DNA of 35,975 nt from positions 119,534 through 155,508 of the forward strand of contig NZ_JAAHHW010000016.1 of assembly GCF_010692325.1 (NCBI RefSeq). Direction: 5' to 3'. This document shows, piece after piece, positions 3,536-35,275 of the stretch (positions are counted from its first letter, which is position 1; each line of letters begins with the position of its first letter). Position numbers and translations under genes: made by a program. This DNA is from Moorena sp. SIO3I8 (GTDB lineage: Bacteria; Cyanobacteriota; Cyanobacteriia; Cyanobacteriales; Coleofasciculaceae). The notes beneath the pieces were generated by a model. The model worked only from the letters and a program-made list of their open reading frames with translations, had not been told where the DNA came from and did no database searches.

Positions 3536-4882
3536 GTGAAAACGCCGACCAAAGTCATCAGGACTGATAAATGGAAGCTTAATCCGTCTCCCGGACAAAA
3601 AATCTTGTTTTCGGAGACGGTTAAAGTTTATCGTCAGGCTTGTAGGTACTTAGTCGGTATTATCTATACTCATTGGTCTGAGCTTGGTGGCTTGACTGCT
3701 GTACAGCTAACTCCTGCTGTCGAAAAGTTGATGCATAAAACAGCCAAGCGTCCAAATATCAAATATCCACAATTCAACAAGGCTTTTTACAAGTTCCCTA
3801 GTTACTACCGTCGAGCTGCGATAGCATTTGCCGCTGGACAGGTTAGTAGTTATGTGACTCGATACCGTGAATGGCAGTCTGGTAGTCGAAAAAGAAAAGA
3901 TAGCAAGCCACCAAGATTAAATGCTGATACTGGCTGCTATCCAGCTTTGTACAAAGGTCAATGTTACAAGCTACATGGTTTTGACCAAATCGAAATCAAG
4001 GCTTTTAATGGTAAAGATTGGGTTTGGACTACAGTTCAAATAACTGGTCTAAGAGAGCGTCATAAGATAGCTACAAACAAGATGATGTCCCCTTCGTTGA
4101 TTTTTAACGTACGGTACTGTCATCTGTCTGTTCCGTTTACTTGCAAACCAGAAAAACGCCAGCCATTGGCTAACATAACTGCGGTAGATTTAGGGATTAA
4201 TACTACCGCTACCGTAGCAGTTGTAACCCATAGTGGCACTGTAATCCATCGTGATTTTATTCATCTTGGAAGAGACATAGACCGCAGGGACAAACGACTA
4301 AAGTCCGTATCAGCAAGAGCATCGAAAACGATGGGAAAAGGAGGAAAACTACATAAAGGTTTTTGCTCTTTGACTTATCAAAAATGCCAAAGAATCAATA
4401 ACCAAATTGGCCATATTGTTTCCAAGCGGATTGTTGAGATTGCTGAAAAGTTTAACTCGGAAGCCATTGTATTCGAGAATCTTAAAGGGTGGAAGCCCAT
4501 TGGTGGACGAAAGCGGTCTAATTTAAAACAAAGATTCCACGGATGGCTCAAGGCAAAAATCCGCGACTTCACAGAAATGAAATGGGCTGAATTGGGTGGA
4601 AAAGTGATAGAAGTCGTTGCGTCTTATACCTCTAAACTTGCTTTTGATGGCTCTGGTACGGTTAAGAGAAATTCTCAAAAATACTCTTTGGCAACCTTCC
4701 CTTCAGGTAAGCGGTTTAATGCCGACTTAAACGGCGCTTACAACATCGGTGCTAGAGGTGTGTTTAAACTCACTCGCAGAAATGACGGTGAGGGTCGTTC
4801 CAGCAAAAGTTCTGGACGACCACCTAGAAGCTGGGTTTGCTTGTGTGATTTGTGGGCTGCGGCTAGCCCTAGATTAGCATAA
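3536..4882 (+). CDS. tnpB: TnpB, RNA-guided RuvC nuclease/transposon protein
   Basis: TnpB proteins are RNA-guided DNA nucleases of IS200/IS605 elements and the ancestors of Cas12. The RuvC triad is complete: D218 (AVDLGINTT), E314 (VFENLKGW) and D397 (NADLNGAYNIG). Length is 448 residues from a GTG at 3536. The usual zinc ribbon (two CxxC pairs between the E and last D) is missing. Its place holds SYTSKLAFDGSG and SLATFPSGKRF, with no cysteines. The C-terminal tail after the triad is about 45 residues and arginine/serine-rich. I infer a guide RNA from the 3' end of the gene and the right hairpin. Activity without the zinc ribbon is an open question. Confidence 0.92.
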   Translation: MKTPTKVIRTDKWKLNPSPGQKILFSETVKVYRQACRYLVGIIYTHWSELGGLTAVQLTPAVEKLMHKTAKRPNIKYPQFNKAFYKFPSYYRRAAIAFAAGQVSSYVTRYREWQSGSRKRKDSKPPRLNADTGCYPALYKGQCYKLHGFDQIEIKAFNGKDWVWTTVQITGLRERHKIATNKMMSPSLIFNVRYCHLSVPFTCKPEKRQPLANITAVDLGINTTATVAVVTHSGTVIHRDFIHLGRDIDRRDKRLKSVSARASKTMGKGGKLHKGFCSLTYQKCQRINNQIGHIVSKRIVEIAEKFNSEAIVFENLKGWKPIGGRKRSNLKQRFHGWLKAKIRDFTEMKWAELGGKVIEVVASYTSKLAFDGSGTVKRNSQKYSLATFPSGKRFNADLNGAYNIGARGVFKLTRRNDGEGRSSKSSGRPPRSWVCLCDLWAAASPRLA

Positions 4883-8289: not shown

Positions 8290-10560
8290 ATGGCTAGCCC
8301 CACTCTAAAAACAGGTCAACATCGAGAAGGTAGCTGGTATTTTCCGCTGCGACTGAACTTGGTTCTGCCACTGGTGACTAGGCGTTGCGTGGCAGCGCTT
8401 TTGGAAGTATCGCTGGTAACTACTAGTGCATTGCTCCCTTACGGGATTGGTTTGTATGCAGAAAAATACTCGAAGGCAGAACCGGTTCCCCTTAACCCAG
8501 TGTTGGGGGCAACCCAGAATGCGATCGCAAAAACTCTAGCTTACCCGCGCCTACAACTAACCAAGCGAGTCACTCCCCTGACCAATTTTTTTTGGTGTGC
8601 TTCGTTAGTGATGCCAGTAGGAGTAACCCTATGGCAACTTTATCTGCTGGGAAAAACTGGTCAAACTATTCCCAAAGGTTGGTTTGGAGTGCGAGTGGTT
8701 ACCGCTTCGGGAAAACCGCCTGGTTTGATCGGTGCGGTGTGGCGTGAGGCAGTGGGACGCTGGGGATTACCACTGGGAAGTGCTTATCTACTCTGGCGCT
8801 ACACTGGAGCGTTTCCCGACTTGTTAATTTTGTTGGGATTGGCAGGATTGATGCTATTGGCAGAGAGTTTTAGTTCTGTATTAAATGCTCAACATCGCAG
8901 CCTCCACGACTACATAGCCGGAACTTATGTGTCGGATTCCTCTCGGTTGCTCTTGCCGTACTGGTCAAGTTTTGAATCCTCCCCCTCACCAGAGTATGAA
9001 GAGGTAGAGCTAGAGGAGGAGACTGATGGGCAATGGTCTCAAGAGTATGAAGAGGTTGAGCTAGAGGAGGAAACTGATGGGCAATGGTCTAATCACCAGA
9101 AAGCTACCTGGGGTTACCGTAGCGCAACAGTTAATCCCATTACCCTGTACTCAAAATCTCAACAGCACTCCCCCAATCTTTGGTTGTGGATGCGCCGAAA
9201 TCCTGGTCTTACTCTGCTAATTGTTACCTTTGGCGGGATGGGTTCTGTACTCGGCACGTTTGTGGGTACCCAAATCTATATTCAAAGTCAGGCCAATTGG
9301 CGAGCGTTCAATCAGCAGAAAAATCAGGTCTTTCTGACCTTAGTGAAACAATTAAGCTCCACTGATAGCACTGCTCAAGAAGAACGTTTGGGATCAATTC
9401 TGGCTCTAGGTAGGATAGACGACCATCGTGCTGTACCGTTTCTGGTGGATTTGCTGGGTCAGGAAAATACCCCTAGCTTGATTGATACCCTCCAACAAAC
9501 CTTGGTCAGTAAAGGTGTTCAACCCCTTCCCCATCTACGAATATTGAATCAATCTTTGGCCAACGACCAGAAAACCCTAACCAGGGAAGGTAAACCAGGG
9601 GTTGGGGGAGTGCTAGCGGTGCGGCACCGAGCAACTAAGCAAGCTATCTCGAAAATTCTGACTATCTACGACGGTCAAGTGCATAATGCTAACCTGAGCT
9701 ATATTAACCTCAGTAAGGTTAATCAGGGTTATGGCTATTTTAATCCAATTCTGAACAATCTGAATTTGTCGGGCATTAATTTCCGCTACGCTAATTTGTC
9801 CGGTGCTAATTTGCAGGGTAGTCGCTTCTATGGCCCTGGTGAGGATGAACATTTTGGCACTTTTGATGATTGGGTCAGTGACTTCAGCGGAGCTGATCTC
9901 AGAGAAGTTAACCTAACTGGTGCTATTCTCGACAATGTCTTGATGAATCGCACCAATTTAATCGGGGCAACCCTGAACCGAGCAAGGTTTTATAACGGTA
10001 GCCTGATCGGTGCTAATCTCAGCAGTGCCCAGCTGATTAATGCTGATTTCCGTAGAGCTATCTTAGAAAATGCTAGCCTCACAGGAGCTAATTTGGGGGA
10101 AGCAAAATTCAGTCTCTCTAGTCTTCATGGTGCTCGTTTGGGCAAAGTTAGTGCTGTGGGGAGTGATTTCTCTTCTGCTGATTTAAGTCAATCAAGCTGG
10201 CAAGGAGCGAATCTTTCTAGGGCAAATTTGAGTAATGCTAATCTCAAAAATGTTGATTTCAATTCAACCCAATTGGTAGGGGCTAATTTACGCAATGCCC
10301 AGCTGTACAATGCTAAGCTACGTCACGCTAATCTAAGTGCTGCGGATTTGCGAGGGGCTAATTTAGCTGGAGCAGATTTTCTGGGAGTTACCTTTGCTAT
10401 GGCTAAACAGAACAAGGCTAATCAATTTATTACCTTGCCACCACCTAAATCGAATTTAGCCCGGATTAAGGGGGTGAATTTTACCAATGTTAAAAATTTA
10501 GATGAGCAGCAACTTCGATATATTTGTACCTATGGTGGACTTCATCCTAGATGTTTGTGA
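8290..10560 (+). CDS. RDD-domain / pentapeptide-repeat membrane fusion protein
   Basis: A 756-residue multidomain protein. Residues about 20-225 form an RDD-type membrane domain: a hydrophobic helix near RRCVAALLEVS, then GQTIPKGWFGVRVV and HRSLHDYIAGTYV. Residues 235-268 are an acidic linker made of two tandem 17-residue units (EYEEVELEEETDGQWS, encoded by a 51-bp duplication at 8992-9093). A third membrane helix lies near residues 300-322. A HEAT-like patch (LGRIDDHRAVPFLVDLLG) follows, then a long pentapeptide-repeat domain (A(N/D)LXX) from about residue 463 to 715. The repeat domain should form a right-handed quadrilateral beta-helix. Function is unknown; it is likely a membrane-anchored scaffold. 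ATG at 8290. Confidence 0.85.
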   Translation: MASPTLKTGQHREGSWYFPLRLNLVLPLVTRRCVAALLEVSLVTTSALLPYGIGLYAEKYSKAEPVPLNPVLGATQNAIAKTLAYPRLQLTKRVTPLTNFFWCASLVMPVGVTLWQLYLLGKTGQTIPKGWFGVRVVTASGKPPGLIGAVWREAVGRWGLPLGSAYLLWRYTGAFPDLLILLGLAGLMLLAESFSSVLNAQHRSLHDYIAGTYVSDSSRLLLPYWSSFESSPSPEYEEVELEEETDGQWSQEYEEVELEEETDGQWSNHQKATWGYRSATVNPITLYSKSQQHSPNLWLWMRRNPGLTLLIVTFGGMGSVLGTFVGTQIYIQSQANWRAFNQQKNQVFLTLVKQLSSTDSTAQEERLGSILALGRIDDHRAVPFLVDLLGQENTPSLIDTLQQTLVSKGVQPLPHLRILNQSLANDQKTLTREGKPGVGGVLAVRHRATKQAISKILTIYDGQVHNANLSYINLSKVNQGYGYFNPILNNLNLSGINFRYANLSGANLQGSRFYGPGEDEHFGTFDDWVSDFSGADLREVNLTGAILDNVLMNRTNLIGATLNRARFYNGSLIGANLSSAQLINADFRRAILENASLTGANLGEAKFSLSSLHGARLGKVSAVGSDFSSADLSQSSWQGANLSRANLSNANLKNVDFNSTQLVGANLRNAQLYNAKLRHANLSAADLRGANLAGADFLGVTFAMAKQNKANQFITLPPPKSNLARIKGVNFTNVKNLDEQQLRYICTYGGLHPRCL
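8992..9093 (+). repeat. 51-bp in-frame tandem duplication
   Basis: Units 8992-9042 and 9043-9093 differ at only a few bases. They encode a doubled acidic 17-residue segment in the linker of the RDD/pentapeptide protein. Confidence 0.92.
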
Positions 10561-10570
10561 CACTATTTTA

Positions 10571-10668
10571 GAGTAGGGAGTAGGGAATAGGGAGTAGGGA
10601 GTAGGGAGTAGGGAGTAGGGAATAGGGAACAGGGAATAGGGAATAGGGAGTAGGGAGTAGGGAGTAGG
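10571..10668. repeat. STRR heptamer array GAGTAGG/GAATAGG x14
   Basis: Fourteen 7-mers (GAGTAGG, GAATAGG, one GAACAGG) begin 11 bases after the stop of the RDD/pentapeptide gene. Confidence 0.95.
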
Positions 10669-10779
10669 AATAAAATCATGTTTACCTGATAACTATGAGA
10701 AACGCTATAAACTTTTAATCATATAAATTGACCACGAAAAAAATCAGCCTACTTGATTTTTTTCTATTGTCAAAAAATT

Positions 10780-10813
10780 AGCGATGCTCTGAAAGATCCG
10801 CTACGCGAACGCA
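10780..10813. repeat. 34-bp inverted repeat, left copy
   Basis: This 34-base sequence (begins AGCGATGCTCTGAAAGA, ends GCTACGCGAACGCA) recurs in inverted orientation at 11870-11903 with one mismatch. The pair brackets the outer-membrane protein gene. The rest of 10669-11146 is AT-rich non-coding DNA with a hairpin at 10737-10763 (AAAAATCA/TGATTTTT). Confidence 0.9.
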
Positions 10814-10995
10814 TAAATTCAAAAGCTACTGAGTCGATTGACTATCTTCGAGTTGACTTGAGTTGAAAACCCCCTTAACCAGAATAGATTGCTTAATGGA
10901 TTGCGTTGATTTAAAGTTAACTATCAACAGTGAACAAAACATCAACCTGTATATAGCGGTTTATATTATAATCAAATAATTTTTACTTTCTTGCC

Positions 10996-11058
10996 TGTTC
11001 CCTGTTCCCTATTCCCTGTTCCCTATTCCCTGTTCCCTATTCCCTGTTCCCTATTCCC
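10996..11058. repeat. STRR heptamer array TGTTCCC/TATTCCC x9
   Basis: Nine 7-mers alternating TGTTCCC and TATTCCC, the reverse-complement class of the GGGAACA/GGGAATA units. Confidence 0.95.
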
Positions 11059-11146
11059 TTTGCTATATTAGTTTCACCAAAGCAATTAAGCTAATATGAG
11101 CGAGAAAGCAGCCATCATTAGAATTAGGTATTGAGGAGTTGAGGAA

Positions 11147-13649: not shown

Positions 13650-13833
13650 TATAGCGTTTTTATCAAGGGAGCAGGGAGCAGGGACTTCGGAGCAGTAGGA
13701 AAGACCTTGGAAAATTTTTTGGTGTTATAGGTACAAGGAAATAGGGAACAGGGAATAGGGAACAGGGAAAAGTAGGAAAGAGCTTGGATAATTTTTTCCC
13801 ACTCCCCACCCTCCCCAAACTTCCCACACTCCC

Positions 13834-13876
13834 CACTCCCTACTCCCTACTCCCTACTCCCTACTCCCTACTCCCT
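13834..13876. repeat. STRR heptamer array TACTCCC
   Basis: About six TACTCCC units just upstream of the chorismate-lyase-like gene. The remainder of 13650-13833 holds GGGAACA/GGGAGCA pieces and a repeated AGTAGGAAAGA-CTTGG motif (about 13694 and 13772). There is no gene. Confidence 0.9.
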
Positions 13877-13923
13877 AAAACCCAAGAATTTATACCTCAC
13901 CCCAATAATAATTGCTATTAAAA

Positions 13924-14475: not shown

Positions 14476-14542
14476 GGAGTAGGGAGTAGGGAGTAGGGAG
14501 TCGGGAGTCGGGAGTCGGGAGTCGGGAGTCGGGAGTCGGGAG
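14473..14542. repeat. STRR heptamer array TAGGGAG x4, TCGGGAG x6
   Basis: Ten 7-mers. The first unit supplies the stop codon of the upstream gene. The array ends 16 bases before the IS630 left end. Confidence 0.95.
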
Positions 14543-14558
14543 GGTGGGAAGAGGCGTA

Positions 14559-15808
14559 GTGGACTGGCACAGCTAAAATAGTGCAATAGAAGGATCATTA
14601 TTTGAGGTCAAAAAAATGGGAAGAGGTCGTAGAGATAAAGTGCTGCTGACAATCGAACAAAGACGAAGACTAGAAAACATCAGTCGCAATGGCTATGCTC
14701 CTGCCAAGAAAATCCTCCACGCTAGGGTTCTTCTGATGTGTGACGAAGGAGAACAAGCGATAGATACATGGACAGATGAAGGGATAGCCAAAGCTTTAAA
14801 TCTACATCGAAATACCGTAGGGCGTATCAGAAAAAGATATCTGACCCAAGGAGAAGAACCAGCACTCAATAGAAGGTTAAGAAAGAAACCACCAACTCCG
14901 CCAAAAATAGATGGCGCGACAGAAGCCCAAATCATTGCCATGTGTTGTTCAGACCCTCCAGAAGGAAGAGCAGATTGGACGATTAGACTACTGACATCGG
15001 AACTGAAAAAGCGAAGAGTAGTCACAGAAATCTCTCGTGAAACGGTACGTCGCACTTTAAAAAAAACCAGCTACGTCCTTGGAAAGTAAAACGTTTCTGT
15101 ATTCCTGAACGAGATTTGGCCAGATTTGTCGCCCAGATGGAAGTAATTTTAGACCTTTACTGTTCTGAGCATTGTCGAGATCAGCCATTGATTTGTATGG
15201 ATGAAGCATCAGTCCAACTCCTAGATCATCTCTATAAACCGATTAAAATGCAACCTGGTCAAGACCAGAAAGAAGATTATCACTATACTCGTGAAGGGAC
15301 ACAAGCCCTGTTTATGTTTTTTGACCCTAATGCTGGATGGCGGCGAGTTAGCAATCGAGACCATCGGTCTCGTGTAGACTGGGCGGAAGAAATTCGCCAA
15401 TTACTGGATGTTGACTATCCCCATGCTAGTAAAGTCAAATTAGTCTGCGATAATCTCAATACTCATGTGGATTGCTTCTCTTTATGAAGCTTTCCCGGCT
15501 GATGAAGCTCATCGTCTTGCCAGACGACTAGAAATTTATCATACTCCTCGTAATGGCAGTTGGTTAAATGTAGCAGAGATTGAACTAAGCATTTTAACCA
15601 AACAATGTTTAGCCCGCAGGATTTCTAGTCCTGAAAAATTGGAAAAGAAGTTAAAAGCTTGGGAACAAGAGCGAAACAAAACAGCCAGTCAAGTAATTTG
15701 GCATTTTTCAACCCCGGATGCCAGAGTCAAACTTAAACACCTTTATCCAGTGTTTGAAGATGAAGAGATGGCAGATTCTAATGCACCAAATTAGCTGTGC
15801 CAGTCCAG
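14559..15808 (+). mobile_element. IS630-family insertion sequence, about 1250 bp, complete ends
   Basis: The left end 14559-14590 and right end 15777-15808 are inverted repeats matching at 27 of 32 positions, with the core TGGACTGGCACAGCTAA identical. TA dinucleotides flank both ends (14557-14558 and 15809-15810), the TA target duplication of IS630/Tc1-mariner elements. The internal transposase is frame-disrupted. It is inserted at the edge of a heptamer array. Confidence 0.93.
14616..15794 (+). pseudogene. IS630 transposase, two frame changes
   Basis: Three successive frames make up one IS630 transposase. 14616-15066 encodes the N-terminal HTH part (HARVLLM, RNTVGRIRKRYL). 15065-15470 encodes the DDE core start (MDEASVQLL and VCDNLNTH, the two Asp). 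15466-15794 encodes the remainder with the catalytic Glu (GSWLNVAEIELSIL). The first shift is -1 at an A8 run (15059-15066, reading TTA AAA AAA ACC). That is a plausible programmed slippage site of the kind used by some IS630 members. The second shift, after NTH at about 15468, needs an extra base to be removed and has no slippery sequence, so this copy is probably dead. The stop lies inside the right terminal repeat. Confidence 0.9.
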
Positions 15809-15811
15809 TAG

Positions 15812-15886
15812 GGTGCGTTAGGGACGGGCGAGCCCTGATTTTCCACATTTTTGCCAGTGTTGGGACAGCCCGTCCCGTAACGCACC
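15812..15886. repeat. 75-bp palindromic element
   Basis: GGTGCGTTAGGGACGGGC (15812-15829) pairs with GCCCGTCCCGTAACGCACC (15868-15886) apart from one extra base. MITE-like; it abuts the IS630 right end. A short GGGAGTC array follows at 15918-15940. Confidence 0.8.
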
Positions 15887-16002
15887 ACCGGGTCAAACAG
15901 AAAAAATGAGATGCACCCGTCGGGAGTCGGGAGTCGGGAGTTGGTATAATAAACGCTATAGTTTTAATTTATTATTTTATTGCTTAATAATTCAACTGAA
16001 CT

Positions 16003-17091
16003 ATGAAACTAACAGGACCGCAATATCAACAATTAACCGATGCTTTACTTAAGGCGTTCCCATCAAAATCAAGACTTGCTGAATTAGTTGAATATAAATT
16101 CAGTAAAAATCTAGATGCTATTTCAATGGGAGACGACTTAAAAGAAATTGTATTTAAGTTAATTAAAGCTGCCCAAGCAGAAGGATGGGTTGATAACCTG
16201 ATTGCAGGTGCCCGTGAATCAAATCCAGATAACTCAGCCTTATTCGCCTTTGCCCAGGAGTTTAATCTTGCTATTGCTATGCCGCAACCGCTATCAGCAA
16301 GAGGTAGATTAGAAAGACTGATTAAGAAAACCAATTCTTTTTTAGATGTAAATCAGTGGCGGGAGAAGTTAGGTCAAATTGAAGGGCAAGTCTGTCGTGT
16401 AGAAGTTACGAATAACGATAATAGTCAGGAATTTGGGACAGGTTTTCTGATTGCGCCCAATGTGGTTATTACTAATTACCATGTGGTGGAATCGGTAATT
16501 TTAGAACAAGCAACGTCTAGTAATGTTATCCTGCGTTTTGACTACAAGCAGTTAGGGGATGGTAAAGTTATCAACCCAGGTACAGAGTATCGCTTAGTAG
16601 AGGATGACTGGCTAATTGATCAAAGTCGTTATACCAACAATCCGTTACCAACCCCTGACGAATTGGATTATGCCTTGCTGAGAGTAGATGGAGTTCCTGG
16701 GGAAGAACCGATTGGGAAAAATCCCGATCCCGATTCTCCCAAGCGCCAGTGGATTGAGTTACCACAAGAGCCTTATCAGTTTGTGCCCAATACTCCACTG
16801 TTTATCGTGCAGCATCCCAAGGCCGAACCCTTAAAAATAGCCTTTGACACCGAGGCTATTATTACTATTAACGAGAATGGGACAACGGTTAAGTATAAAA
16901 CCAATACCGAACCCGGTTCCTCTGGTTCTCCATGTTTTGATATTAACTGGAATTTAGTAGCCCTGCATCATAGTGGTGACCCAAGCTGGAAACCTAGTTA
17001 TAACGCTGGCAGCCCCTTCAGTGCTATTTGTGCGCGGTTAGAGAAGCAAGGGTTATTGACAGATTTACTTAAAGGTGAAGCAATGTGGTGA
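16003..17091 (+). CDS. EAD1 domain - trypsin-like serine protease (conflict-system effector)
   Basis: Two domains in 362 residues. Residues 1-90 form an effector-associated domain 1 (EAD1): a helical region with AFPSKSRL, LKEIV and NPDN. Residues about 125-350 form a trypsin/HtrA-like peptidase with the triad H160 (ITNYHVV), D222 (LDYALL) and S307 (PGSSGSPCF), all intact. There is no signal peptide, so it acts in the cytoplasm. EAD domains are known to recruit effectors to partners carrying the same EAD. The next gene carries a matching EAD1 with the same AFPSK/LKEIV/NPDN signature. It is the first gene of the 16.0-22.3 kb cassette, 150 bases upstream of the VMAP gene. I infer that it is the lethal or regulatory effector released on activation. 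Confidence 0.88.
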   Translation: MKLTGPQYQQLTDALLKAFPSKSRLAELVEYKFSKNLDAISMGDDLKEIVFKLIKAAQAEGWVDNLIAGARESNPDNSALFAFAQEFNLAIAMPQPLSARGRLERLIKKTNSFLDVNQWREKLGQIEGQVCRVEVTNNDNSQEFGTGFLIAPNVVITNYHVVESVILEQATSSNVILRFDYKQLGDGKVINPGTEYRLVEDDWLIDQSRYTNNPLPTPDELDYALLRVDGVPGEEPIGKNPDPDSPKRQWIELPQEPYQFVPNTPLFIVQHPKAEPLKIAFDTEAIITINENGTTVKYKTNTEPGSSGSPCFDINWNLVALHHSGDPSWKPSYNAGSPFSAICARLEKQGLLTDLLKGEAMW

Positions 17092-17241: not shown

Positions 17242-18708
17242 ATGAATGCTGGAAATCCCCCTGGTTATCTCCTCAAAAAGATAAACAAAGCACTGTGTAG
17301 TGCTTTCCCTAGTAAACCTGACTTAAAAATGATGGTGCTGTATCAATTCAGTATACATCTTGAAGAGGTTGCTGGTGGTAAAAATTTAAAAGAAATTGTT
17401 CAGGAATTAGTTGACGATTTTAATAATCAAAATAAATTAATAAAATTAATTAACAAAGCCCTTAAAGAAAATCCAGATAATCCTGACTTAAAGGCAATCA
17501 AGGAAAAATTTAAAATTACCACTAGTTTAGTCAAATTATTGCTTCCTTTAGAAAAAAACTTTATCAACCAAATGCAACAAGCTTATAGAGCTTGCTGTCC
17601 CGATGAATTATTGGATGATTGGGAAGACGAACTCCCTGAAAGTTTAGCTGAAATCCTAGGGAATTTGGATGATATCCCTCAACAAAATGATGATGAAAAA
17701 CTTATTGTACAATTTGTCGCTCGTTTATTAAAAACTGGTGATATTCCCAAATCTCATGGTGATAAACTCAAGCAATGGATAAAAGAAAATGCTAATAACC
17801 CTTCTGATTTATTATCTCAGAGTAGCAGTAACTCTCAAAATCATCAGCAACAAAATTTACATGCACAACCTTATCTGCTTGTCAAGGTAGATCCCAGTAA
17901 GCAATATCACCAACAACGTCAACCTAGTTATTTCGTTTCAGCTTGGTTTATTCCTGACATAAGTAATTATGATTACTTCCGAAATCATCAAGACTGTAAA
18001 TTTTTAGAGACTCCACTAGCTGATGGAGAATCTGAACAAGATGTCTTCTCTCTTGAAGACTTGCAAAAGTTAATAAAATTTTTTCTAAATCAGTCAAACC
18101 AATATTATAAAAAATCTTCCTGTAAACCAAGTATTGTATTTGTTTTGCCTTATCAACTCTTGAACTATGAATTTGAAAGAATTGAAATTAAAAATAATTT
18201 TGATTTAACACTTCCTATTGGTAGCCAGTATTGCGTAGTTATTCGCTCTCTTAAACGTTTGGATAATTTGAAAGAAATTCCTTACCGAACAAATTGCATC
18301 ACAAAATGGGAAACAATCAAATCTAGTTGTCAAAATAGATGCGCCCAAAAATTTGTTGATGTTACTAATTTTAATGACTGGAATAAATTATATGCTTATT
18401 TAGAGACAACAAATGCGGCATTAAAATTAAATAAATCACCATGTAATAATATATTTAGAGTAATTGACACGACGGCAATACCAGTTGCTTTATGGCTCAG
18501 GAAAAATAATTTTACAACTATTAATTGTCAATATGAACTCGAGCAATTACTCAATTCTCAAATAAATCAGCTTCCCGAAAAGGTAAAACAACAACGTTTA
18601 GACGCTTTTGGAAAAGGGAATAAACAAGAACATATCGGACACCATCTTTCTCTTTTGTGGGAAGACCCCTATCTACTACCACCCCAGATTGACTATACAA
18701 CCTTATGA
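17242..18708 (+). CDS. EAD1 domain - VMAP (vWA-MoxR associated protein)
   Basis: A 488-residue protein. Residues 8-95 form an EAD1 like that of the upstream protease ([26 protein letters not shown]). A middle helical part (about 100-195) and a glutamine/asparagine linker follow. The C-terminal part (about 215-485) is a VMAP-C-like region, starting [13 protein letters not shown] and ending [15 protein letters not shown] proteins link the effector to the MoxR/vWA pair in ternary conflict systems. Its stop overlaps the next start (ATGA at 18705-18708), implying translational coupling to the MoxR gene. It is visibly more AT-rich than the housekeeping genes around it. The VMAP call rests on context plus the C-terminal motif; moderate confidence. 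Confidence 0.75.
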
Positions 18709-19676
18709 CTAATAACTCTTGGAAAATCTTTCGCGGAACTCCCGAAGAACCCCACAATGGCATTGAACGCCTTCCTGAGCCTCCTAGCTGGCGGAAATTT
18801 GACAAAACAGAACGGGGTACAACCTATCAGACCAGGCCAGAGGAAATAGAGTTAGTCAATGCAGCGTTGTATCTGCGTCGTCCTTTATTAGTAACCGGAA
18901 AACCAGGCACAGGAAAAACATCGTTAGCCTATGCAGTCGCTCAAGAGTTACAATTAGGAGAAGTGTTACGTTGGAATATTACCACTCGCTCCCATTTACA
19001 GCAAGGACTTTATAGTTATGATGCCATTGGTAGATTACAAGATGCTCAAGGAAGCGGCAAAGATAATTTAAGGAAAATTGGTAAGTATATTCAATTGGGT
19101 CCCTTGGGAACAGCGTTACTCCCCTCAACTTACCCGAGGGTATTATTAATTGATGAAATGGATAAAAGCGATATTGATTTACCCAATGATTTATTGACTA
19201 TTTTTGAGGAAGGAGAATTTGAAATCCCGGAATTAACACGACTAGTTGAGCAGTTTCCAAAGATTGTTGTCAAAACCTGGGATAATCAAAGTACAACCAT
19301 CGACAAAGGAAAGGTAACCTGTGATGCATTTCCTTTTGTAGTCCTGACCAGTAACGGAGAGAGGGAATTTACCCCGGCTTTTTTACGACGCTGTTTAAGA
19401 TTAGATTTACGGAAACCAACTCGGGAGGAATTAGAAGCAATTGTCAAAGCTCATTTAGGGGATAGTCTTGAACAAGCTGAACCGATTATTGAAACCTTTC
19501 TCAAGCGACGGCAGAAAGGAAACTTGGCTACAGACCAATTGCTTAATGCCATTTATATATTAACTAACACAGTCAATACAGACGATGCTCCCATGGTTGA
19601 CTCTCAAGAAGAAGACAAAGACCAGAACAAAGAAAGGTTAATTGACCGATTGCTGCAGTACCTCAGTAGTACCTAA
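18705..19676 (+). CDS. MoxR-type AAA+ ATPase
   Basis: A 323-residue AAA+ ATPase. Walker A is GKPGTGKT (65-72), Walker B is VLLIDEMDK (146-154), then [19 protein letters not shown] (MoxR-type insertion after Walker B), sensor-1 VLTSNGERE and an arginine-finger FLRRC. MoxR ATPases act as chaperones that load or remodel vWA-domain partners, here encoded by the next gene. It starts inside the VMAP stop codon (4-bp overlap) and ends 5 bases before the vWA/lectin gene, so the three form a tight operon. Cytoplasmic. Confidence 0.93.
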
Positions 19677-19681
19677 GGGAT

Positions 19682-22315
19682 ATGGTTGAAAAAGCGATCG
19701 CTATTCTACAACAAGCAGGATTTGATTTAACTGCTCGGGAAATAGCAGAAATTTTCTGGTTGGCTGTTCATCTAGACCAGCCCATAGACCAGTCAGAGGA
19801 ACCACAGCAGCCATTACCACAGCAGCCATCGCAATCATCAACGGTATCCCAAGACCAATCACAGCAACCACAAAAGCGATCGCAATCATCAACGGTATCC
19901 CAAGACCAATCACCGCAACCCCCAAATCAAACTCCAGATATCCAACCAGATACCCAAGAATTACCGTTACCTGAAGTCACAGAACCTGGTGCTGATGTTG
20001 GTCTTGCCTCTTCCAAACCTAAAAAGACTAAAGCAAGTGGAGAAGCAATTCCGATTAAAGTGCCAGCAGCGGTAGCATTGAGAAATAGTCTGGCGTTGGG
20101 ACGGGCACTTCGTCCGTTAAAGCGGAAAGTCCCATCTGCTACAGAAACGATATTGGATGAAGAAGCTACTGTTTACCAAATTGCCGAATCAAACATTTGG
20201 CTACCAGTTCTGAAACCCGCTTCCGAACGATGGTTAGAGTTAGCGTTGGTGGTTGAAAAAACTAGTTCAACTGCGGTTTGGAAACAGACAATCATTGAAC
20301 TGCAACATTTAGTCAAGCATCATGGAGCGTTTCGAGATGTACGCACGTGGGAATTAAGGATTACTGAAACACAAGACATCAATAAACCAAAGGTAGACTT
20401 ATTTCCTCAAACTAGCACCGGTCGGTATGACTCCACGCCCTATCCTCCCCAGGTCTTAATTGACCCGAAGAAACAACGTTTAATTTTATTGGTGAGTGAT
20501 TGTATTTCTGTGGCTTGGCGCAGACAATTAATTCATCCAGTGCTAGAGTTTTGGGGACGCAATGGTTTACTGACTATCCTTCAGCTACTTCCTGAACGGC
20601 TTTGGGAACGCACGGCTTTAGGTTCAGAAACACCAGTGCAACTGCATTCTTTTAGTCCTGGAGTTGTCAATTCTCAGTTTATTGTTAAACCTTGGGATGA
20701 AGATGACATTGGACTTCTTTCAGAAGTCGGGAACAGGGAACAGGGAACAGGGAACAGTAAGTCTATTCAGAATAAATCCTCTGTCAATGTTCCCGTCGTT
20801 ACGTTAGAACCCTACCCGCTGCTGGCGTGCTCACAGGTAATAGCTGGTCAGGGAAATGTTAGTACAGTGGGGTTTAACTTTGATGTATCCCAAGACCCCC
20901 AAGCAGAGAGAACAGGGGTAGATGCTAAACCCAGTCAACCCCAACTCGAAGCACCAGCATTAGTTAGTCGATTTCGTGCGACGGCTTCTCCGATGGCGCG
21001 TCGGTTAGCTGGATTAATGGCAGCTGCTCCAGTTAGTTTACCTGTAGTGCAACTAATTCAGCAAACCCTGCTACCAAAATCTGCCCAAATTCACGTAGCG
21101 GAGGTGTTTATGAGTGGACTGCTCCAGTCTATAACCCCTGTAGACCAAGATTCAAATCCGGATTATATTGAGTACGAATTTAAGCCAGGGGTAAGGGAGT
21201 TATTAGTAGATTCTGTACCCATTAGTAAAACCGTTTCAGTTCTTGATAAAGTATCTGAGTTTATTGCTAAAAAGTTAGGGTTATCAGTAAAGGAATTTGA
21301 AGCGCTTTTACTTAAACCGGCAACTGCAAGTAATGATTGGTTAGACCAAAAAATTCGTCCCTTTGCACACCTCAAGGCTCAAGTTTTACAGCGATTAGGA
21401 GGGGAGTATGCTCGTTTAGCTGAAGAACTACTCATCTCACAAACCCCTACCTCAGCTAATCCCTCAGGGTTAAAGCAGTTTTCCTTTGAAGTAGTAACAG
21501 TTAACCGTAAAGGAGTAATAATCAAGAAAGAAAATAAGCAAGCGGATTATTTCACTCAAGATCTGGGGAATGGAGTAGACCTAGATATGGTGTATATCCC
21601 AGCAGGACCCTTCTTAATGGGTTCCCCGGAAACTGAGAGGGGGAGTTATCAAAGGGAAAGACCTCAACACCAAGTAACCATCCCACCCTTCTTCCTAGGG
21701 AAATATCAGGTAACCCAGGCGCAATGGCGAGCTGTGGCCAACAACCTCCCAAAAGTTAACCGGGACTTAAAGCCAGACCCCTCTCACATTAAAGGAGACA
21801 ATCGACCAGTAGAGCAAGTAAGCTGGGACGATGCGGTGGAATTCTGCGATCGCCTTTCTGAATATACAGGAACCGAATACAGATTACCGAGTGAAGCGGA
21901 ATGGGAATACGCCTGTAGAGCAGGAACTACCACGCCATTCCATTATGGAGAGACCATTAGCAATACATTAGCTAATTATGACGCTTCCTATACCTATGCA
22001 CAGGAAGCAGAAGGGGAATATCGAGCAGAAACCACCGAAGTAGGAAGTTTTCCCCCCAACCGCTTTGGCTTATACGATATGCACGGCAATGTTTGGGAGT
22101 GGTGTGAGGATCCAAGGCATGATAATTACGAAGGAGCCCCTATAGATGGGAGTGTATGGCTTAATAATAATAATGATTATCGCAGACTGCGGGGCGGGTC
22201 CTGGGACGTCAATCCTAGGCTTTGCCGTTCTGCCTCCCGCAACTACTATCACGCGCGCGATTTCCTCTACCTCTTTGTCGGTTTTCGTGTGGCGAGGGGT
22301 GTTGGGAGGAAATAG
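19682..22315 (+). CDS. vWA-like (SAV_2336-type) protein with C-terminal FGE/C-type-lectin domain, probable DGR variable protein
   Basis: An 877-residue protein. Residues 1-35 are helical. Residues 38-80 are a PQS-rich linker with a duplicated 17-residue unit. Residues about 120-340 are a SAV_2336/vWA-like domain (WLELALVVEKTSSTAVW); its MIDAS is E192-x-T194-x-S196 instead of DxSxS. A linker with in-frame heptamer repeat lies near 348-357. A helical region follows, then an FGE-sulfatase/C-type-lectin fold from about 630 (VYIPAGPFLMGSPE, EWEYACRAGT, YDMHGNVWEWCED, RRLRGGSW, VGFRVARG). It lacks the GGSYMC/SYC copper cysteines of catalytic FGE, so it is a binding module. The stretch 842-865 has the codon pattern of a DGR variable region. 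It is the last gene of the operon; I infer it is the sensor. Confidence 0.9.
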   Translation: MVEKAIAILQQAGFDLTAREIAEIFWLAVHLDQPIDQSEEPQQPLPQQPSQSSTVSQDQSQQPQKRSQSSTVSQDQSPQPPNQTPDIQPDTQELPLPEVTEPGADVGLASSKPKKTKASGEAIPIKVPAAVALRNSLALGRALRPLKRKVPSATETILDEEATVYQIAESNIWLPVLKPASERWLELALVVEKTSSTAVWKQTIIELQHLVKHHGAFRDVRTWELRITETQDINKPKVDLFPQTSTGRYDSTPYPPQVLIDPKKQRLILLVSDCISVAWRRQLIHPVLEFWGRNGLLTILQLLPERLWERTALGSETPVQLHSFSPGVVNSQFIVKPWDEDDIGLLSEVGNREQGTGNSKSIQNKSSVNVPVVTLEPYPLLACSQVIAGQGNVSTVGFNFDVSQDPQAERTGVDAKPSQPQLEAPALVSRFRATASPMARRLAGLMAAAPVSLPVVQLIQQTLLPKSAQIHVAEVFMSGLLQSITPVDQDSNPDYIEYEFKPGVRELLVDSVPISKTVSVLDKVSEFIAKKLGLSVKEFEALLLKPATASNDWLDQKIRPFAHLKAQVLQRLGGEYARLAEELLISQTPTSANPSGLKQFSFEVVTVNRKGVIIKKENKQADYFTQDLGNGVDLDMVYIPAGPFLMGSPETERGSYQRERPQHQVTIPPFFLGKYQVTQAQWRAVANNLPKVNRDLKPDPSHIKGDNRPVEQVSWDDAVEFCDRLSEYTGTEYRLPSEAEWEYACRAGTTTPFHYGETISNTLANYDASYTYAQEAEGEYRAETTEVGSFPPNRFGLYDMHGNVWEWCEDPRHDNYEGAPIDGSVWLNNNNDYRRLRGGSWDVNPRLCRSASRNYYHARDFLYLFVGFRVARGVGRK
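19829..19912 (+). repeat. 51-bp-period direct repeat in the vWA/lectin gene linker
   Basis: GCAATCATCAACGGTATCCC recurs exactly 51 bases apart (19831 and 19882), encoding SQSSTVSQDQS twice. The unit contains a GCGATCGC site in the second copy. Confidence 0.9.
20728..20757 (+). repeat. STRR heptamers inside a coding sequence
   Basis: Four GGGAACA-type units (CGGGAACAGGGAACAGGGAA...) sit in the vWA/lectin gene and are translated in frame as NREQGTGN. The same unit is otherwise intergenic in this window. Confidence 0.92.
22205..22279 (+). other. Probable DGR variable repeat (VR) core
   Basis: Codons 842-866 of the lectin gene, between GGSW and GFRV. Candidate hypervariable codons are GAC, GTC, AAT, CTT, TCC, AAC, TAC, TAT, CAC, GAT, TTC, CTC, TAC, CTC, TTT. 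All end in C or T and each is one or two changes, only at A positions, from AAC or AAT. Interspersed scaffold codons (P, R, C, R, S, A, R, A, R) are the ones usually constant in DGR lectins. A GC-rich stretch (22286-22311) after the variable codons fits the position of an initiation-of-mutagenic-homing sequence. No template repeat or reverse transcriptase is seen in this window. Confidence 0.75.
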
Positions 22316-27477: not shown

Positions 27478-27505
27478 CCATGATCTAAAGTCACTCAACC
27501 AGCTC

Positions 27506-27610
27506 TGTTCCCTATTCCCTGTTCCCGATTCCCGATTCCCGATTCCCGATTCCCGATTCCCGATTCCCGATTCCCGATTCCCGATTCCCGATTCCCGATT
27601 CCCGATTCCC
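27506..27610. repeat. STRR heptamer array, 15 units (12 consecutive GATTCCC)
   Basis: TGTTCCC, TATTCCC, TGTTCCC, then twelve GATTCCC in perfect register. It is the longest uniform run in the window. Confidence 0.97.
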
Positions 27611-27636
27611 TAGATTTGGCTCCTGATTAAATTAAG

Positions 27637-27675
27637 CCTGAAACCCTTGTATAAACAGGGTTTCAGGTGTTTTTC
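27637..27675 (+). terminator. Rho-independent-type terminator
   Basis: Stem CCTGAAACCCT (27637-27647) pairs perfectly with AGGGTTTCAGG (27657-27667), with a 9-nt loop, then TGTTTTTC. The only plus-strand gene upstream is sufE, 330 bases away. Confidence 0.65.
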
Positions 27676-33072: not shown

Positions 33073-33267
33073 TTAAAAATAGAAACTGAAACTATAGCAG
33101 TCGAAGTAAAGGTTAAAACATAATTTCTGCTCCCAGATCCGCTGTTTCCGATTCCCGATTCCCGATTCCCGATTCCCGATTCCCGATTCCCGATTCCCGA
33201 TTCCCTATTCCCTTTAAACCAAAAACTATGTCCTAAACTATACTTCCGTTGCTATCAAAGATGTTTC

Positions 33268-35015: not shown

Positions 35016-35121
35016 TATAGCAATTATATTTCCCATGAGGTACAAACTGAGCCCCCGTTGGTCCCCCTTAAAAAGGGGGACTTTGAGCTTGATAAGCGTA
35101 CATAAATTCAATAAACGCTAT
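35016..35121. repeat. MITE-like dispersed repeat, copy B
   Basis: Same structure as 13541-13649: TATAGCAATT, TTTCCCATGAGGTACAAA, the CCCCCTTAAAAAGGGGG hairpin, ACTTTGAG-TTGATAA, and the ending AATAAACGCTAT. Confidence 0.85.
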
Positions 35122-35133
35122 CTTCATTTTATC

Positions 35134-35196
35134 TGTTCCCGATTCCCGATTCCCGATTCCCGATTCCCGATTCCCGATTCCCGATTCCCGATTCCC
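35134..35196. repeat. STRR heptamer array TGTTCCC + GATTCCC x8
   Basis: Nine 7-mers directly following the MITE-like repeat, the same arrangement as in other regions of the window. Confidence 0.95.
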
Positions 35197-35275
35197 TATT
35201 TAATCCCTCTAATTATAACGTTCAAATCCATTGCAACTTCTCCATAAAACTTCCAAAAAAAAATTTTTAAAACCC

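Follow-up and report, generated by a model that had tools for sequence, protein, structure and literature searches.

Introduction

Can the hypervariable tip of a lectin gene be attributed to a diversity-generating retroelement (DGR) in a genome where the retroelement itself is not found? This question is raised by a stretch of 35,975 nucleotides from the cyanobacterium Moorena sp. SIO3I8 (contig NZ_JAAHHW010000016.1, positions 119,534 to 155,508 of the forward strand), referred to below, at its full length, as the window. An initial annotation, made from the sequence alone, had described a probable DGR variable region (VR) at the 3' end of a conflict-system lectin gene, and had supposed that the retroelement was remote. 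It has been proposed that multicellular bacteria use DGR-diversified lectins to sense antigens, and a genus with strongly differing sensors, in which the mutator was not found, offers a natural experiment on whether diversification is continuous or episodic, with the mutator as a visiting mobile element.

VMAP ternary conflict systems with a DGR-diversified FGS/lectin protein constitute a published class of DGR targets, as treated in the relevant parts of Kaur 2020 (PMC7159879) and Dore 2024 (PMC10907252), and cyanobacterial DGRs with FGE/C-type-lectin targets are described in sections of Vallota-Eastman 2020 (PMC7517822). According to the VMAP passages of Kaur 2020 (PMC7159879), approximately 80% of the VMAP systems in cyanobacteria and gammaproteobacteria are DGR-associated, with the template repeat (TR) located nearby or elsewhere in the genome. 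The system analyzed here is of a known kind and not categorically new; its interest lies in the orphaning of the VR across a genus and in the possible commonness of orphan VRs.

Domain architecture of the sensor gene and its operon

The gene that carries the VR (19682..22315, forward strand) was found with the sequence, frame and coordinates originally described. It encodes a protein of 877 amino acids, with an SAV_2336 N-terminal domain (residues 17-533) that includes a vWA-like fold (183-389), and a C-terminal FGE/C-type-lectin domain (635-872; PF03781 at 207.5 bits), the VR being at the extreme 3' end of the gene, i.e. the arrangement of a DGR target. It is preceded on the same strand by genes for a trypsin-like protease with an EAD1 domain, predicted to be the effector (16003..17091; PF19955 and PF13365 over cut-off), for an EAD1 - VMAP-M1 - VMAP-C protein (17242..18708; PF19955, PF19963 and PF20028, each over cut-off), and for a MoxR-type AAA ATPase (18705..19676; PF00004 and PF07728 over cut-off, with the bpMoxR model of Pfam below its own cut-off). 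The three components by which a VMAP ternary conflict system is recognized (MoxR-type AAA ATPase, vWA component, and VMAP protein with PF19963 and PF20028) were all present, and from its domain content the operon can be classified as such a system, composed of MoxR, a vWA-FGE/C-type-lectin sensor, EAD1-VMAP and EAD1-trypsin. PADLOC matched the MoxR and protease genes weakly and partially, and nothing more. The published systems, in the portions of PMC7159879 and PMC10907252 that deal with them, have the same parts, namely MoxR, a vWA-lectin fusion, VMAP, an EAD adaptor and a trypsin-like effector; an anti-invader role is predicted for them in the literature.

The lectin domain resembles the Treponema denticola variable protein TvpA (PDB 2y3c), both in sequence (E 2e-21) and in Foldseek comparison (E 2.3e-15), and in both cases an FGE-type lectin fold serves as the DGR variable protein. 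TvpA, however, is a surface lipoprotein, while the protein analyzed here belongs to a ternary system as its sensor. Since the structure models were of middling confidence (mean pLDDT of 67.8 for the N-terminal part and of 70.9 for the FGE domain, whose VR loop scored below 50), the face taken by the variable lectin residues was left unassigned.

Limits and codon composition of the variable region

Three intact DGRs, located on plasmids of Anabaena sp. 90, Nostoc UHCC 0926 (locus L066) and Acaryochloris MBIC10699, were used as a yardstick. Each of them comprises a reverse transcriptase (RT), Avd, FGE targets and a template near the RT, in which the variable codons are mostly AAC or AAT, and those of Nostoc and Acaryochloris adjoin MoxR and target genes homologous to the ones in the window (49-51% identity for MoxR). 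In the four VR/TR pairs that were aligned, mismatches within the block fell on template adenines, save for one C/T difference in Nostoc VR2; the blocks started at or near CTGCGGGG and ended at most about 15 bases from the stop codon. Based on these block ends, the VR of the window was placed at about 22187-22309 (forward strand), with approximate limits that are backed by homology to the intact VR/TR blocks, to a paralogue and to orthologues. The initial annotation (22205..22311) was right as to the location, although the homologous block reaches further 5', and the position of the VR at the very end of the gene was borne out by the same comparison. Similarity to the cyanobacterial FGE-target DGRs (PMC7517822, in the sections devoted to these targets; Nostoc UHCC 0926 L066) included a VR at the 3' end of the gene, the scaffold, the codon map, similar block ends, and homologous target and MoxR genes.

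The window VR aligned codon for codon with the variable and template repeats of the intact elements. Thirteen of its codons (842-844, 847, 854-858, 861 and 863-865; 22205..22276, forward strand) lie opposite AAC or AAT (AAY) codons of the Nostoc UHCC 0926 TR (L066). Fifteen candidate codons had been proposed between the conserved GGSW and GFRV motifs, all of the form NNY; all of them do end in C or T, and 12 of the 15 face AAC or AAT in the Nostoc TR, whereas codons 852, 860 and 862 face TTT, GAC and CAC, and codon 858 had been missed. The latter is GCG in the window gene and CCG or ACG in two paralogues, and ends in G in all ten VRs compared within the genus. Stretches of 25 codons starting at codons 842-845 contained 23 NNY codons, the joint maximum among 7,508 such stretches from the 26 open reading frames of the window (overall NNY rate of 0.52), tied with the reading frame at 86-568. 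The constant, G-rich 3' end of the block (22290..22309, forward strand) lies where the TR/VR pairs of intact DGRs have their constant 3' end, and would be the site where mutagenic homing initiates.

In order to evaluate whether differences were concentrated at template adenines, the Nostoc UHCC 0926 TR, i.e. the template of a relative, was used, as none was found in the genome itself. Of its 32 adenine positions, 21 were different in the window VR, compared with 9 of its 55 other positions (Fisher p = 5e-6), and eight of these nine non-adenine differences were at third codon positions. The same bias was observed for nine further VRs of the genus (p from 1e-8 to 9e-3). Measured against a relative's template, therefore, the pattern of a DGR variable region was present, with adenine-type positions changed and the scaffold kept.

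Divergence among orthologues and paralogues

The genome of the window (G000) was compared with those of three congeneric species (G001, G002 and G003). The locus is syntenic in G001, with identities of 95-98% outside the operon, 88.5-89% in the operon and 93% in the 3' part of the target gene, and also in G003 (85-96% over the aligned pieces). Between G000 and G001, 18 of 26 first and second bases differed in the 13 AAY-derived codons, and none of 13 third bases; for the interleaved scaffold codons the corresponding counts were 1 of 20 and 0 of 10. The comparison with G003 yielded 19 of 26 and 3 of 13 in the AAY-type codons, and scaffold counts of 2 of 20 and 0 of 10. Comparison among strains had been suggested by the initial annotation as a check, with changes spread over non-adenine positions counting against its reading; in the window gene the changes were concentrated at adenine-type sites.

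The distribution over codon positions was likewise distinctive. The 26-codon VR core of G000 and G001 showed 12, 9 and 0 differences at positions 1, 2 and 3 (21 in total), versus 16, 15 and 20 (51 in total) in the other 247 codons of the domain (p = 3e-4). In 12 chosen VR pairs, 11 leaned in the DGR-like direction (p from 1e-5 to 0.04); the exception was a pair with longer loops from G002 (L198 and L203), with 11, 8 and 11 VR differences at the three positions (p = 1). These two loci (G002:C1:901820 and G002:C5:711796) are related long-loop lectin genes whose differences, equal on third positions, are not DGR-like. By itself, the codon-position test does not distinguish the work of a DGR from very intense positive selection.

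Third bases were also analyzed across the genus, where 14 VRs were aligned and the ten with a 26-codon core were used, leaving out three longer and one shorter. At 12 codons of each of these ten VRs, 42 of the 43 codons for amino acids that allow a choice had C or T as their third base, a count that excludes codon 858 (ending in G throughout) and for which window codon usage predicts 25.9; with codon 858 included, 117 of the 130 AAY-type codons ended in C or T. At a broader scale, 80 named cyanobacterial loci supplied 103 VR-type stretches, not counting 11 that were template-like. Among the first three variable codons of these stretches, a final C or T was seen in 50 of 51 cases where the locus has an RT, and in 213 of 225 where it has none.

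At the level of the variable sites themselves, the window VR matched its two orthologues at 8 and 7 of 26 sites, no more than expected by chance (permutation p of 0.82 and 0.92, six VRs), while the orthologues from G001 and G003 had 15 of 26 sites in common (nominal p = 0.014, six VRs). As these two share more sites with each other than either does with the window, not all pairs of VRs have diverged to saturation. The scaffold of the window VR is intact, and that of the VRs in G001 and G003 has changed at several residues (GGSW to GGSR, W to C, P to S, C to S, and R to C).

A search of the genome with the VR (E 0.01) retrieved three VR genes, i.e. the window gene and those at C335:45903-46043 (83%) and C68:5282-5393 (70%), in addition to nine weaker matches of 15-39 bases each, two of which were read. 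Genomes of the genus contained two to seven VR matches each at E<=0.01, with 12 further ones in the three congeners. The paralogue on contig C335 (L021; 7899-9404, minus strand) encodes 501 amino acids, with N-terminal EAD1 and VMAP-M1 fused straight to the FGE lectin; its N-terminus is 52% identical to the window VMAP protein over 228 columns, and its VMAP-C domain seems to have been replaced by the variable lectin.

Search for reverse transcriptase, Avd and template repeat

The initial annotation had noted no RT or template repeat in the window, and none was present among the window reading frames; a repeat search of the window retrieved heptamer arrays and other small repeats, with no copy of the VR and no repeat of VR/TR type. 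Genome-wide, PF00078 (RVT_1) gave 22 matches, 20 of them on open reading frames, where PQGG..SP, the motif of group II, is present in 19 and PQGSPASP in one, the remaining two (contig C1) being pieces of a single frame-broken PQGG type. The motifs were read in all 22, and none was that of a DGR RT. When the four genomes of the genus were searched with the Nostoc DGR RT, the best match reached 53 bits, and matches were 22-37% identical, as group II intron RTs are; motifs were read in the window's own genome, and the three congeners were judged on identity and score. At E<=1e-60, none of 20 genomes of the family, the four of the genus included, had a DGR RT. The same query detected one in 20 of 120 genomes of the order, the best match in each at E<=8.2e-143 and 62-72% identity, which makes the absence from genus and family meaningful. 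In this order-wide search at least three genomes (G000, G002 and G034) were scored on 17 candidates only, while genus and family were scored fully.

No template repeat was detected in the genus, either with a deduced TR or with an AAY-pattern search; in the control, six of seven RT-positive genomes gave a match to this pattern no further than about 100 bases from the RT match, the seventh (G104) being equivocal. Matches to the deduced template in genus and family were, in each case read, coding VRs or unrelated stretches; the reading left out three matches in G017 (C22, C1 and C325), of which the one on C1 shows non-AAY codons. Avd was found in none of the four genus genomes and in all seven RT-positive controls. 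Fragments of avd were detected in two of 12 family genomes tested, the copy in G007 ending early and that in G016 being stop-interrupted and running into another FGE gene, suggesting that DGRs were lost within the family. In G016, from a related genus, the locus (G016:C249, L233) consists of tandem FGE targets followed by the stop-interrupted avd, i.e. a decayed DGR. Neither this genome nor those of the three congeners thus yielded any of the three parts of a complete DGR (DGR-type RT, template repeat and Avd), and the supposition of a remote retroelement is unsupported. Such an outcome of the genome-wide template and RT search had been named beforehand as counting against a DGR origin, and for this assembly nothing was found; the VR assignment is not undone by it, because in the window gene the strain comparison had the opposite outcome.

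Mobile elements were surveyed as well. In IMG/VR, a pattern for the VR 3' end had no match, and the cyanobacterial DGR RT had 30 relatives (best identity 47%). In a plasmid collection, 18 records contained similar DNA, the one at 97% matching a 35-base constant piece only; the records read for a template were L065-L067. Within the literature on Moorea/Moorena the term DGR was absent among the matches listed, and in that on orphan VRs it occurred only in PMC10686091, again among the matches listed.

Origin of the variable region

On the orthologue, codon and template evidence, the DGR origin stands. The region at 22187-22309 is interpreted, with a probability of roughly 0.8, as the authentic DGR VR of a VMAP ternary sensor tip, the present tip being most likely a fixed variant, with the VR orphaned by loss of the mutator. 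That a conflict-system lectin gene here carries a DGR variable region is supported by orthologues, by paralogues and by intact DGRs with homologous targets, so that the original interpretation, given the lack of support for its remote-retroelement part, is partly supported overall. According to this sequence of events, an adenine-specific cyanobacterial DGR would have rewritten AAC and AAT codons of the lectin tip, probably also after the split from the congeneric species, and the element (RT, Avd and TR) would then have been lost. The variable lectin face may bind an invader molecule, whereupon the vWA/MoxR pair would relay the signal to VMAP, and EAD1-EAD1 contacts would recruit the trypsin-like protease, as envisaged from the literature on these systems.

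Loss of the DGR, as well as its timing, we infer from the missing RT, TR and Avd; against it counts that the assembly is a draft of 510 contigs, and the RT and TR may possibly lie on an unassembled replicon. Moreover, had RT loss preceded the separation of the species, ectopic VR exchange would be needed instead to explain the strong divergence of the orthologous VRs; DGR action or exchange of VRs probably took place also after the split. The scaffold changes in other VRs of the genus (GGSW replaced by GGSR or GGSC, P to S, C to S, and R to C) fit a lack of recent homing, because homing would copy the template scaffold back, and the last rewriting of the window VR, whose scaffold is intact, may be more recent than theirs. 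Comparable cases are the remnant VR without proximal RT in Nostoc PCC 7120 (all3226; PMC7517822) and the incomplete DGR loci of Thiohalocapsa (PMC10907252), in which, as in the window, a VR target is separated from or deprived of its RT. As far as the passages on these loci go, those genomes retain other DGRs or intact structural variants, whereas none was found in the four genus genomes. In the same way, the cyanobacterial FGE-target DGRs treated in PMC7517822 and at L066 keep RT, Avd and TR in the genome, and the VMAP systems covered in PMC7159879 are mostly DGR-associated with a TR, whereas the genome analyzed here yielded neither RT nor TR, nor Avd.

As an alternative, a complete DGR on a plasmid, phage or other replicon missing from the assembly would still be rewriting the VR in trans. 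The dissimilarity between the window VR sites and those of its orthologues, the intact window scaffold, the plasmid location of the intact cyanobacterial DGRs, and the trans activity inferred from metagenomes for Thiohalocapsa (in the pertinent section of PMC10907252) are all compatible with this. Yet all 20 family genomes were devoid of a DGR RT, including the four of the genus, two of which are assembled in 10-20 contigs, and scaffold bases that homing would restore are altered in the VRs of G001 and G003; we regard ongoing targeting as quite unlikely. A somewhat better case, still rather unlikely and partly overlapping with the orphaned-VR reading, can be made for reshuffling after RT loss, by which ectopic gene conversion would move tips among paralogues. 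Several VR matches per genus genome are available for it (two to seven, E<=0.01), and the window VR was nominally closest to the VR at the other locus of G001 (15 of 26, p = 0.013), and the window-locus VR of G001 was nominally near that at the other locus of G000 (14 of 26, p = 0.038). Over all pairs of the six VRs, however, the maximum was not significant (p = 0.18), and the G001 and G003 orthologues are equally close to each other (15 of 26). A reciprocal swap of VRs between the two loci was considered and set aside, the p values being nominal only.

Ordinary positive selection on the loop residues of a non-DGR FGE protein is very improbable. The FGE fold is in keeping with it, changes at first and second bases are expected when new residues are favoured, and the codon-position test alone does not exclude it. 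Against this stand the contrast between variable and interleaved scaffold codons in G000 and G001 (18 of 26 versus 1 of 20 first and second bases), the C or T endings in 42 of 43 informative codons, and a codon map identical to that of real TRs.

Frequency of possible orphan variable regions in the order

A VR signature (GGSW, three NNY codons, P, NNN NNY, CRSA), whose reversed pattern, used as a control, gave no match, was detected in 40 of 120 genomes of the order, 12 of them RT-positive and 28 without a detected DGR RT; many of these assemblies are drafts, so that in some of the 28 an RT may have escaped assembly. Conversely, 8 of the 20 RT-positive genomes failed the strict signature. A genus whose sensors differ strongly while the mutator is not found also suggests that RT-first surveys overlook many VR-bearing genes. 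It may tentatively be proposed, as a conjecture that we consider doubtful as yet, that hypervariable sensors in the order are usually orphans: mobile DGRs would arrive, diversify many lectin sensors in trans and get lost, leaving fixed lineage-specific repertoires of antigen sensors, with later diversity generated when DGRs return or when VR paralogues exchange sequence.

Other features of the window

Upstream of the operon, a transposase broken over several reading frames was present at 14522-15918, with the look of an IS630-type element. The corresponding site has about 170 bases only in G001 and about 1 kb of non-aligning sequence in G003, so the element is not common to G001. Within the coding sequence of the target gene, a short in-frame GGGAACA heptamer array was observed at about 20709-20779, where about 45 bases are missing in the alignments of G001 and G003. 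Heptamer arrays (e.g. TTCCCGA and GGGAGTA) were numerous, in both orientations and mostly intergenic (10535-11080, 13700-13890, 27490-27650, 33096-33262 and 35100-35250, among others). The reading frame at 3536-4882 appears, by eye, to encode a TnpB of the IS605 family.
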